Of a stretch of 59,056 nt of DNA, positions 2,762 to 31,356 are shown piece by piece. This stretch comes from Desulfuromonadales bacterium. Its GTDB lineage: Bacteria > Desulfobacterota > Desulfuromonadia > Desulfuromonadales > JACZKF01. Positions within the stretch are counted from its first letter, which is position 1. Each line of letters starts with the position of its first letter. The notes under the pieces are model-generated. The model was not told the DNA's origin, ran no database searches, and saw only the letters and a list, made by a program, of their open reading frames with translations. The stretch is taken from NCBI GenBank assembly GCA_029289095.1, contig JARFUG010000012.1, positions 1 through 59,056 on the forward strand. Reading direction: 5' to 3'. A program made the translations under genes and the position numbers.

Positions 2762-2809
2762 CTGGTGACTGGTGACTGGATTAAAGTCCCGAGTCAGTCA
2801 CCAGTCACC
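2762..2809. repeat. Inverted heptamer repeat (GGTGACT family)
   Basis: Arms 2764-2778 and 2795-2809 are a perfect 15-bp inverted repeat with a 16-nt loop. Each arm is built of a 7-nt unit (GGTGACT and its complement). It lies between the convergent lemA and ykgJ ends. The right arm encodes the last residues and stop of ykgJ (GDW-stop). It may act as a bidirectional terminator, though no strong T-run is present. Confidence 0.75.
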
Positions 2810-3448
2810 GACCTTCTCAAAATCGATGAGAAGCGCCGTCGGGATGAAGGTGTCGAACTCGTTGCGGGGAGCGCCGAGAAGGTTTCCGGTAAACTGCTGG
2901 AAGAGGGCGAGCTCCCGTTCGAAGAGGCGCCGGAACTCCCAACGCAGCTCGGACAGGACAAGGGGGTCGGCGGTGGGGAAGTTGAGGGTGCAGAAATCGC
3001 TTTCAAAAACTTCCCCGCTGCCGTCGATGTGGGGAAGACCGTGCAGGCGGCACGTCATGGGGCGCGCTTCGTAAAGGAGGCAGCGCCCTTCATCGTTCAG
3101 AAGGACGCAAGGGAACTCCTGCGGCATCTGCATCCACTCGTCGTGCGGCAGGGCGTTCAGAAGATAGGGGGGACCGAATCCGCTCCACCTCGTCTGGAGT
3201 TCTTTGGCGATGCGATTCGCCTTGCGGGCCACTTCCTCGCGCCGCGGCTTCTCCAGTGAGCCGAAAGCGCTCCGGAGCAGAGCCGCATCGAGGAGGGTGA
3301 TGTCGAAGAGCCCGCGGCAGCAGCCGCTACACCCCGATGTGCAGGCGATCTGGCCAGGAACGGCGGCAAGACAGCGGACGAACCATGCGTCGACCTCTTC
3401 GAGAAGACGCCGATACTCCTGCACGATCTCTTGTGCCGGGAACCTCAT
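2798..3448 (-). CDS. YkgJ family cysteine-cluster protein
   Basis: A 216-aa protein of the YkgJ/CxxCxxCC family, thought to bind a metal or Fe-S centre. The N-terminal cluster CTSGCSGCC is followed by the second set CVLLNDEGRCLLYEARPMTC, which fits the usual family spacing. The ATG at 3448 overlaps the msrA stop (ATGA) and has GAGGAG 9 nt upstream. That makes it translationally coupled to msrA and favours it over the GTG codons 6-9 nt further up. The C-terminus and stop fall inside a heptamer repeat. Substrate or partner is unknown; coupling to msrA hints at a redox role. Confidence 0.85.
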   Translation of the reverse strand: MRFPAQEIVQEYRRLLEEVDAWFVRCLAAVPGQIACTSGCSGCCRGLFDITLLDAALLRSAFGSLEKPRREEVARKANRIAKELQTRWSGFGPPYLLNALPHDEWMQMPQEFPCVLLNDEGRCLLYEARPMTCRLHGLPHIDGSGEVFESDFCTLNFPTADPLVLSELRWEFRRLFERELALFQQFTGNLLGAPRNEFDTFIPTALLIDFEKVGDW

Positions 3449-4128
3449 GCCCACCACTCCTCGGCCGCCGCACGTTCGATGCGGCGGCGCAGGGTGCGCT
3501 TTAACTCCTCCGAAAGCCCCAGCCGAGGAAATTCGCGCTCCAGCGAAGCGACGGAGCCGTATCCCCCCAGGTAGCCGTTGACCCGGGCGACGGCGGTTGA
3601 ATCGGCAAGGGCGATCGGATCGGGATAGAACTTTTCGAACACGTGCATGATCGCGGGTTCGCGTCGCAGAAAATATTTCTGGTGGTAGTCCTCCGCCCGG
3701 GTGAAGGCGCTCAAGGGCTCGATGCCGGTGTACAGGGTGCGGCCGCGCCGGTCCTGTTCGCGCGACATCGATTCTGCGGCGATGCGCCCCTGTTCGTCAT
3801 CGTGGAAAAAGACGGCCGAGCGGTACTGCCTCGAAACGGCGGGGCGGCTCGGATCGTGGGCGACCCAGAACCACGAGAGGATCTGACCGAAGGAGATCCT
3901 CTCCGGATCGAAGTCGATCTGCAGCGTCTCGCTGTGATCGCCGATGGTGCGGTAGGTCGGAGCGGGGGTCGTGCCCCCGCAGTAGCCTACGCGGGTGCGG
4001 ATCACCCCGTCGAGACTCCCGAACCGGGAGTCGGGTTCCCAGAATCACCCGAGGGCCAGGGTCGCCGTTTCAATCCTGCGGGGAAGCTCTGTATCGATGG
4101 AGGGGGCGGGCGGGGACAAGATCGTCAT
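3445..4128 (-). CDS. msrA: Peptide methionine sulfoxide reductase MsrA, selenoprotein
   Basis: MsrA reduces methionine-S-sulfoxide in proteins. A naive ORF starts at a GTG (4005) and lacks the catalytic GCFWG motif. Reading from the ATG at 4128 (AGGAG 6 nt upstream) gives the missing N-terminus with one in-frame UGA at codon 28. The context is LALG-U-FWEPDSRF, so the UGA sits exactly where the catalytic Cys of GCFWG belongs. Downstream residues (TRVGYCGGT, then GDHSETLQIDFDP) are classic MsrA. A SECIS-like hairpin follows the UGA. With Sec the product is 227 aa. The only Cys is in GYCGG and no C-terminal resolving Cys is seen. A sequencing error or pseudogene is the alternative, but the motif position and hairpin argue for selenocysteine. 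Confidence 0.87.
4014..4047 (-). promoter_or_regulatory. UGA codon and SECIS-like hairpin in msrA
   Basis: On the minus strand the UGA is at 4047-4045. After 12 nt comes a perfect 7-bp stem, GACTCCC/GGGAGTC (4032-4026 and 4020-4014), closing the loop GGTTC. The apical loop starts 19 nt after the UGA, within the 16-37 nt range reported for bacterial SECIS elements. The loop begins with G, as expected for SelB recognition. Outside the stem a CCC/GGG pair with a bulge can extend it. Confidence 0.8.
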
Positions 4129-10554: not shown

Positions 10555-12021
10555 TCAGGGGAGCAGAGACATGCGCAGGATCCGGGTGAACTTTCCGCCG
10601 GGTCCCTCCTCTCGCGGCGAAGGCCGCAGCAGTGAGCGAATCGCCGAAGAGACGGCGATGCGTCCGTCGGCCGCAAACGATTCGCGGTTCTTTTCGATCT
10701 CGTCGAGCTTGTACAGATAGTTCACCATCATCCCGTAAGACTGCCTGATCCCTTTTGGTGAAAGATCTCCCGCCCAGTTCAGACGCTCGATTCGGGCGCC
10801 GTTGCCCAGGTGAAAGCGCTCCACCGGATCGAGAAGACCCCCGTCCTTCCCCTTCTTGTGCAGGTAGCGGACGCACAGGCGCTCCAGCGGCTCACGAAGA
10901 AACTGTTCGATCTCCCGGCGCCGGTAACGCTCGGGGACGCTGAGGATCTCTTCGAGCACGGGAGGAAGATTCAGAGAATCGGCAGATGCCCCCAGGGCCT
11001 CCCGGGCGCTCTGCTCGAGGGGGTCTTCGCTGTCGGCCGCAAGCGTCGCTGAGAGCCAACGGGCGAACCCGGGAAGGGGAGAAAGAGTGGCGAAGGTGCG
11101 CAGGTTGGGAAACTCGTGCCGCAGCTCGTCCACCACCTGTTTGATGAGAAAGTTGCCGAAACTGATCCCCCGAAGCCCCTTCTGGGCATTGGAAATCGAG
11201 TAGAAGATGGCGGTATCGGCCTCTTCGGGCTTCAGATCGGGGGCGCTCTGGTCGAGCAGGGCCTGGACGCTGTCGGAAATGCCGGTCACCAGGGCCACCT
11301 CGACGAAGATCAGCGGCTCACCCGGCATGGCCGGGTGAAAAAATGCGTAGCAGCGCCGGTCCGATTCGAGACGGTTTCGCAGGTCGTCCCACGAGTCGAT
11401 CTCGTGCACCGCTTCGTAGGCGATGAGCTTTTCCAGCAGCGCCGCCGGCGAATCCCAGGTGATGTGATGAAGCTCAAGAAAACCAATGTCGAACCAAGTG
11501 GCAAGCAGACCCCTGAGCTCCCCGTCCAGGCTCTTGAGCGCCGGATCGGAACCGATGTGGCTCAGCAGGTCGCCTCGCAGGTCGACGAGAAACTTCATTC
11601 CCTGGGGAAGGGCGAGAAACTGGCGCAACAGGCGGATGCGCGGGGAGGCGAGTTCTTCTCGCAGGTGCTGTTCGGCACGCAGAAATGCTTTCTCGTCCGC
11701 GGCCTGCAGCAGCGTGCGCGCCGCCTCCTCGACCCGGGGACGGTCGGCGGAGAATTCGCGGGCGAGAAGCTCCAGAAAGCGTCGACGCCCCTCCTCGTTG
11801 AGGGTGAGATAGCTCTGTCCGAGCCCCGCCGCCCGGCGGCGGACCGTGATTTCGCCTCCGCGCCCGGCCACGCAGTCGCGCATCTGTTTTCGCAGCACGG
11901 CGAGATCGCCCTCGGAAAGAGACGGCTGAAGGCTCGGAACCTTGTCGGTGTCGCGAAGCGATTCAGACATTCCCTGCCAGACCTGACGAAGGTTGCTCAG
12001 AGTGCCCCGGATGACGTCCAT
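10555..12021 (-). CDS. Malonyl-CoA decarboxylase
   Basis: A 488-aa protein matching the MLYCD/MatA-type family, which converts malonyl-CoA to acetyl-CoA and CO2. Visible hallmarks are ITWDSPAALLEKLIAYEAVH, RRCYAFFHPAMPGEPLIFVEVAL, FYSISNAQKGLRGISFGNFL and the C-terminal VERFHLGNGARIERLNWAGD. The helical N-terminal domain and GNAT-like C-terminal domain are both complete. It could serve malonate or fatty-acid metabolism, but no malonate transporter or malonyl-CoA synthetase is nearby. Its neighbours are glycogen phosphorylase and cardiolipin synthase. Confidence 0.9.
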   Translation of the reverse strand: MDVIRGTLSNLRQVWQGMSESLRDTDKVPSLQPSLSEGDLAVLRKQMRDCVAGRGGEITVRRRAAGLGQSYLTLNEEGRRRFLELLAREFSADRPRVEEAARTLLQAADEKAFLRAEQHLREELASPRIRLLRQFLALPQGMKFLVDLRGDLLSHIGSDPALKSLDGELRGLLATWFDIGFLELHHITWDSPAALLEKLIAYEAVHEIDSWDDLRNRLESDRRCYAFFHPAMPGEPLIFVEVALVTGISDSVQALLDQSAPDLKPEEADTAIFYSISNAQKGLRGISFGNFLIKQVVDELRHEFPNLRTFATLSPLPGFARWLSATLAADSEDPLEQSAREALGASADSLNLPPVLEEILSVPERYRRREIEQFLREPLERLCVRYLHKKGKDGGLLDPVERFHLGNGARIERLNWAGDLSPKGIRQSYGMMVNYLYKLDEIEKNRESFAADGRIAVSSAIRSLLRPSPREEGPGGKFTRILRMSLLP

Positions 12022-30354: not shown

Positions 30355-31356
30355 TCACCCGGCGTTAAAATGGCTGAACCCCTTGGAGCCGACCGGGCGG
30401 GAGCTGCCGTCCCGGTGACGAAGCGAAAAGCCTTCCGAAGGGGGTCGAATCTCCCCAATCCTCGTGAGCGGTAAAGAGAGCGCTGCGGAAAGAGCCGCAA
30501 TCTCCCCTTCTTTGTGCGGCGGGGTGCAGAAGAGAAGTTCGTAGTCCTCCCCGCCGCTCAGTGCGAGCTGGAGCACCTCGGGGTCGGCAACGAAAGCCTC
30601 TCGAAACGACGAAGAGAGCGGCAGGCTCTCTTCGTCGAGAAGCGCCCCGACGCCCGATGCTTTGAGGATATGGCCGAGGTCGGCGAGCAGGCCGTCGGAG
30701 ACGTCGATCATCGCTGAGGCGATCCCCCCTTCGGCCAGAGCGCGTCCGAGCTCGGTGCGCGCGCGGGGATCGTGATGGCGCCCGGCGATGGCGGCGCAGG
30801 GGGTCTGTCCCTTCTGCAACATCCGCAGAGCCAGAGCGCTGTCTCCCAGCGTGCCGGAAACGTAAACGGCCTCGCCTTCCCGGGCGCCCGCGCGCGAAAC
30901 GAGCTGCATCTCGGGGACCGCTCCTTGCGCGGTGACGCAGATGAGCAGCGGCCCCGGAGAACGGCAGGTATCGCCTCCCGCCAGAACGGCCCCGTACTCG
31001 GCGGCGGCTTCGAGAAACCCGGCCGCGAATTCGTCGACCTCCGCCACTGTCATCGCGGAGGGGAGCCCGAGCGCCAGAAAGAGCGTCTTGGGCGCTCCGC
31101 CCATGGCCGCGATATCACTGATGTTGACTGAAACGCTCTTTCGCCCGAGACGGTGCAGATCGGTCCATGCGCGGCGGAAATGAACCTCCTCGATGAGCAT
31201 GTCGGTGGTGGTCAGCAGCAGTTCTGCGGGCACCGGCGCCTGCGCGGCGCAGTCATCCCCGATCCCCACTCGCAGCGAAGCCGCCGAGGGGGCAGCCCTG
31301 CGGATGCGTTCGATCAAACCGAACTCCCCGATGGAGCTTATTTCTGCAAAACTCAT
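30355..31356 (-). CDS. thiL: Thiamine-monophosphate kinase
   Basis: A 333-aa ATP-dependent kinase making thiamine diphosphate. Features are the N-terminal GLIERIRRA, RVGIGDDCAAQ, the metal-binding TTTDMLIEEVHFRR, SVSVNISDIAAMGG, AGGDTC and IDVSDGLLADL. The ATG at 31356 overlaps the lon stop (ATGA), so it is translationally coupled; the sequence further upstream in frame is a shadow of lon. Confidence 0.94.
   Translation of the reverse strand: MSFAEISSIGEFGLIERIRRAAPSAASLRVGIGDDCAAQAPVPAELLLTTTDMLIEEVHFRRAWTDLHRLGRKSVSVNISDIAAMGGAPKTLFLALGLPSAMTVAEVDEFAAGFLEAAAEYGAVLAGGDTCRSPGPLLICVTAQGAVPEMQLVSRAGAREGEAVYVSGTLGDSALALRMLQKGQTPCAAIAGRHHDPRARTELGRALAEGGIASAMIDVSDGLLADLGHILKASGVGALLDEESLPLSSSFREAFVADPEVLQLALSGGEDYELLFCTPPHKEGEIAALSAALSLPLTRIGEIRPPSEGFSLRHRDGSSRPVGSKGFSHFNAG

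Follow-up and report, generated by a model that had tools for sequence, protein, structure and literature searches.

An in-frame UGA at the catalytic codon of a two-domain msrA gene, followed by a bacterial SECIS hairpin, points to a selenoprotein in a Desulfuromonadales bacterium

The window considered here is a stretch of 59,056 nucleotides from a Desulfuromonadales bacterium (GCA_029289095.1, contig JARFUG010000012.1, positions 1 to 59,056). Its minus strand carries, at 3445-4128, an msrA coding sequence of 227 sense codons and a UGA stop, in which codon 28, a further UGA at 4045-4047, is predicted to specify selenocysteine (Sec) as the catalytic residue. The ATG at 4128-4126 is preceded, at a spacing of 6 nt, by the ribosome-binding site AAGGAG (4140-4135, minus strand), and the read-through translation from 4128, MTILSPPAPSIDTELPRRIETATLALG-U-FWEPDSRFGSLDGV..., extends over 227 residues up to the UGA at 3445-3447. 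The internal UGA stands in the context LALG-U-FWEPDS; it is the only one in the msrA frame, which bears no other lesion. The initial annotation had reported the ATG at 4128 with a strong ribosome site, the UGA at codon 28 in this context and an uninterrupted MsrA frame from there to 3445, all of which we find at these positions. It had also expected automatic callers to report a truncated MsrA from 4005, and mechanical ORF finding indeed lists only 3445-4005 for msrA, with a GTG start. The gene is a clean case in which standard ORF finding truncates a protein at its catalytic residue.

From the C-terminal length of the family we infer that the second UGA, at 3445-3447, would end translation of msrA. 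It forms an ATGA overlap with the start of the downstream gene (2798-3448, minus strand), which encodes a CxxCxxCC (putative zinc/iron-chelating) domain, begins inside the msrA stop codon and is probably co-translated with msrA.

The read-through protein matches the Pfam family PF01625 (PMSR) with 132.2 bits against a cut-off of 23.7 (E 2.4e-38), the catalytic domain covering residues 21-156 (3661-4068, minus strand). Its C-terminus matches PF20939, 'Selenoprotein methionine sulfoxide reductase A, helical domain', with 29.7 bits against a cut-off of 23.7 (E 5.4e-7; 3508-3603, minus strand). The best solved relatives are the structures of the selenoprotein MsrA of Clostridium oremlandii (CoMsrA), with E values of about 1e-49 (PDB 4lwj, E 4.1e-49), aligned without gaps over residues 17-211. 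At the constant offset of 12, Sec28 corresponds to Cys16 of CoMsrA, the Cys version of its Sec16, and Tyr47, Glu55, Tyr90, His137 and Tyr140, which are described as the active site of that enzyme (PMC4333827), correspond to Y59, E67, Y102, H149 and Y152. The UGA of codon 28 takes the place of the conserved Cys in GCFWG; W30 is followed by E (GUFWE), a position at which G prevails among relatives. The earlier proposal that Sec28 replaces the catalytic Cys is supported by this alignment, and by relatives that have either UGA or a Cys codon there. It is exceedingly improbable that the true product is the shorter protein from GTG 4005, past the UGA, even though mechanical ORF finding yields 3445-4005: such a product would be without the catalytic residue and the N-terminal portion of the fold, whereas MsrA homology begins with residue 17 of the read-through translation and the PMSR match with residue 21, ahead of the UGA, and the ribosome site precedes 4128.

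We compared 110 loci, of which 25 are from the same order (the window's own included), five are short Cys-type MsrAs from the same class and 80 come from diverse phyla. At codon 28, 103 of them have TGA, three TGC and four TGT, and none of the 110 has TAA or TAG. The full-length homologues, drawn from many phyla, number 105, of which 103 (the window's own included) have TGA and two have TGC, namely a Dehalococcoidia locus (L063:3058-3060) and a Bipolaricaulota locus (L115:3058-3060). The UGA/UGC exchange that had been expected among aligned MsrA relatives is therefore what the codon displays, UGA or a Cys codon and nothing else, and random stops elsewhere in the N-terminus of relatives, which would have spoken against the reading, were not seen. 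It is mainly the recurrence of UGA at this codon in 103 loci, the window's own and 102 homologues, that excludes chance. The nearest relative found is only about 56% identical, so that no very similar second copy is at hand against which a local sequencing error could be excluded.

A hairpin, GACTCCC-GGTTC-GGGAGTC, occupies 4032-4014 on the minus strand and begins 12 nt past the UGA, as the initial annotation had described it (7 bp, with a G-initial loop). Its stem is formed by 4032-4026 and 4020-4014, with GGTTC (4025-4021) as the apical loop; the stem counts 7 bp, or gains an eighth and leaves a GUU triloop if G4025 and C4021 pair. The published constraints for bacterial SECIS elements (bSECIS model, PMC13188914 Fig 2A) are an apical loop of 3-9 nt, an upper stem of 4-16 bp, a distance of 16-37 nt from UGA to loop, a G within the first two loop positions and an energy of -7.5 kcal/mol or lower. 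The hairpin lies within all of these limits: a 5-nt loop on 7 bp or a 3-nt loop on 8 bp, a distance of 19 nt (20 with the extra pair), a loop that begins with G, and a free energy of -12.7 kcal/mol for the hairpin and -14.8 for 35 nt. The fold suggested earlier thus agrees with the bacterial SECIS model (PMC13188914). The loop moreover has the pattern N1-G-U-N-N2 with N1 and N2 paired, as G-C here and as A-U in eight relatives. Only 1 of 200 shuffled hairpin sequences folded as well as -12.7 kcal/mol, but z-scores are weak in longer stretches (-1.6 for 35 nt, -0.3 for 47 nt), and folding energy, which alone is not strong evidence, is left out of the argument. When synonymous codons were drawn from the same gene, all seven stem pairs arose by chance in 93 of 20,000 draws (0.5%). 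An Rfam scan at permissive thresholds returned no match to a bacterial SECIS family, its sole match being a chance-level sRNA.

Across the 103 UGA loci the stem retains on average 5.76 of its 7 pairs, compared with 3.65 +/- 0.10 (sd) under synonymous resampling. A stricter control, which exchanged codons within a column only among loci that share the residue, gave 5.66 pairs (sd 0.016), which means that most of the pairing excess stems from column composition and linked amino-acid changes, and a smaller part from the pairing of individual codons. The covariation score over the same loci is 0.233, against 0.110 when shuffled and 0.030-0.100 with slid partners. Pair 19:31, in which the first base of codon 34 meets that of codon 38, changed jointly on 10 branches of the protein tree and kept its pairing on nine, with five switches from U-A to G-C and four in reverse, where coincidence of changes on both sides would be expected on about 1.3 branches; these event counts are approximate because the tree was inferred from these very proteins and many of its forks have weak support. 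The outer stem pairs (columns 16:34 and 17:33) are kept by no more than roughly one homologue in two, which leaves only the inner five to six pairs as a shared feature. The short Cys-type MsrAs, which have no C-terminal extension, carry Cys codons (UGC/UGU) in five of five cases and the hairpin in none. L063 and L115, with TGC at the Sec codon, have a weakened hairpin and appear to have undergone Sec-to-Cys changes.

Codons 34 and 38 (4027-4029 and 4015-4017) also co-vary at the protein level, Ser34 with Ser38 and Ala34 with Gln, Leu or His38. Since the SECIS stem pairs the first base of one codon with that of the other, this is a covariation signal in the protein with a cause in the RNA; and since the paired positions change the amino acid, the RNA element shapes the protein.

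These observations also bear on the idea that a Cys codon (UGC/UGU) has become UGA by sequencing error or by a fresh nonsense mutation, leaving a Cys-type MsrA or a pseudogene. The assembly is a draft of 154 contigs and a single base separates UGA from UGC; yet the same UGA is found in 102 homologues of many phyla, the hairpin is intact and covarying, and the frame has no other lesion, so that we give this explanation almost no credence.

The genome has the machinery that the initial annotation had proposed to look for, and all four genes are there; the outcome that would have counted against Sec, a genome without sel genes, was not seen. The tRNA-Sec gene selC (anticodon UCA, 74.8 bits) lies on contig 39, and selA (628.9 bits), selB (390 bits) and selD (358 bits) form a contiguous row on contig 89 (54027-58489). 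Co-occurrence of selB with msrA is itself uninformative, because 126 of 147 relatives have selB. At least three further genes of the genome contain an in-frame UGA, namely selD and two formate-dehydrogenase-like genes. In selD (L128:1450-2500; G000 contig 89) it lies near the start, in the N-terminal SSGU motif (TALARSSGUAAKL), so that SelD is probably itself a selenoprotein. The two formate-dehydrogenase-alpha-like genes on contig 24 (G000:C24:11001-11747 and C24:22007-22768) have one in-frame TGA each and probably contain Sec.

Some genetic codes use UGA as a sense codon, and UGA might in principle be decoded here as another amino acid, either Trp by a variant code or by near-cognate read-through. 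We consider this most improbable, given that the position is that of the catalytic Cys, where relatives have only UGA or UGC/UGU, that UGA serves as the family's own stop in 33 of 105 cases, the window gene included, and that the genome has a complete sel set.

The best explanation, to which we assign a probability of roughly 97%, is that the product of 3445-4128 is a peptide-methionine (S)-S-oxide reductase (MsrA) of the Sec type with two domains, Sec being inserted at the UGA of codon 28 by means of the hairpin; judged from sequence, incorporation of Sec at this codon is close to certain. SelB with Sec-tRNA-Sec would bind the hairpin that starts 12 nt past codon 28 and place Sec at the UGA, the parts for which are seen in the sequence. 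By analogy with CoMsrA, Sec28 would attack the sulfoxide of Met-S-sulfoxide, methionine would be released and Sec28 would become a selenenic acid, which may then be reduced by a glutaredoxin- or thioredoxin-type thiol. The C-terminal helical domain, as shown for C. oremlandii, would keep the active site together. In C. oremlandii the Sec form of the enzyme exceeds the Cys version 20-fold in activity, and its reductant is glutaredoxin rather than thioredoxin (PMC4333827).

Three glutaredoxin-domain genes, two MsrB genes and a second MsrA of Cys type (C112:34709-35152) are also present in the genome, so that the Sec-MsrA is one of several Msr activities here. The second copy shares the PMSR catalytic domain with the window protein; in contrast to the latter it has no in-frame stop, and it matches the query only up to residue 154, which leaves out the part with the helical domain.

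Sec-MsrA is an established family in bacteria and algae, and the window msrA is a further ordinary member of low novelty, since the two-domain architecture with Sec has already been crystallised and is represented in Pfam and in reviews. CoMsrA (PDB 4lwj, 4lwk, 4lwl, 4lwm, 4u66) has its catalytic Sec at the same place, the same two-domain layout without gaps over 195 residues and the same Tyr/Glu/Tyr/His/Tyr active site. It differs in having GUFWG instead of GUFWE, four instead of 16 residues ahead of the aligned region, and no Cys (PMC4333827), whereas the window protein has an extra Cys50 in GYCGG. The Sec-MsrAs of bacteria and algae known from genome and metagenome surveys likewise have Sec for the catalytic Cys, in a motif given as GUFWG/H (PMC2398784, PMC9312934, PMC13188914); the E after GUFW is absent from the motif forms named in PMC13188914, and otherwise the differences are sequence details only. 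The GUFWE motif and Cys50 are the points that set the window msrA apart, and they are small.

In the 1-Cys type, to which CoMsrA belongs, the catalytic residue is the sole Cys; with Cys50 present, the window protein falls outside this type. Of the 105 full-length relatives, 50 have no Cys after the catalytic residue, and Cys50 occurs in only three of the 105, the window and two Planctomycetota. Cys50 could be a resolving Cys for Sec28, which would make the protein a Sec-Cys MsrA recycled by thioredoxin through a selenenylsulfide, unlike the 1-Cys, glutaredoxin-reduced C. oremlandii enzyme, but we regard this as quite unlikely.

The 103 UGA loci span many phyla, which shows the helical-domain type of Sec-MsrA to be widespread among anaerobic and uncultured lineages. 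The window msrA (L009, compared with L010-L033 and L039-L118) falls among copies of other phyla, apart from the 24 of its own order; its position in the tree suggests lateral acquisition, although the fork that sets it apart is weakly supported (77/84).

Codon usage served to rank the other candidates for an in-frame UGA in the window, and in none of six read-through frames compared with Pfam did one domain span the UGA. The UGA at 10555-10557, with malonyl-CoA decarboxylase on one side and a PLD-domain protein on the other, is an ordinary stop. At 30595-31287 (minus strand), within a frame of 829 codons, there is a weak SelD-profile match (67 bits, below the cut-off); the frame probably encodes some other protein of the AIR-synthase-like superfamily, PurL for example.
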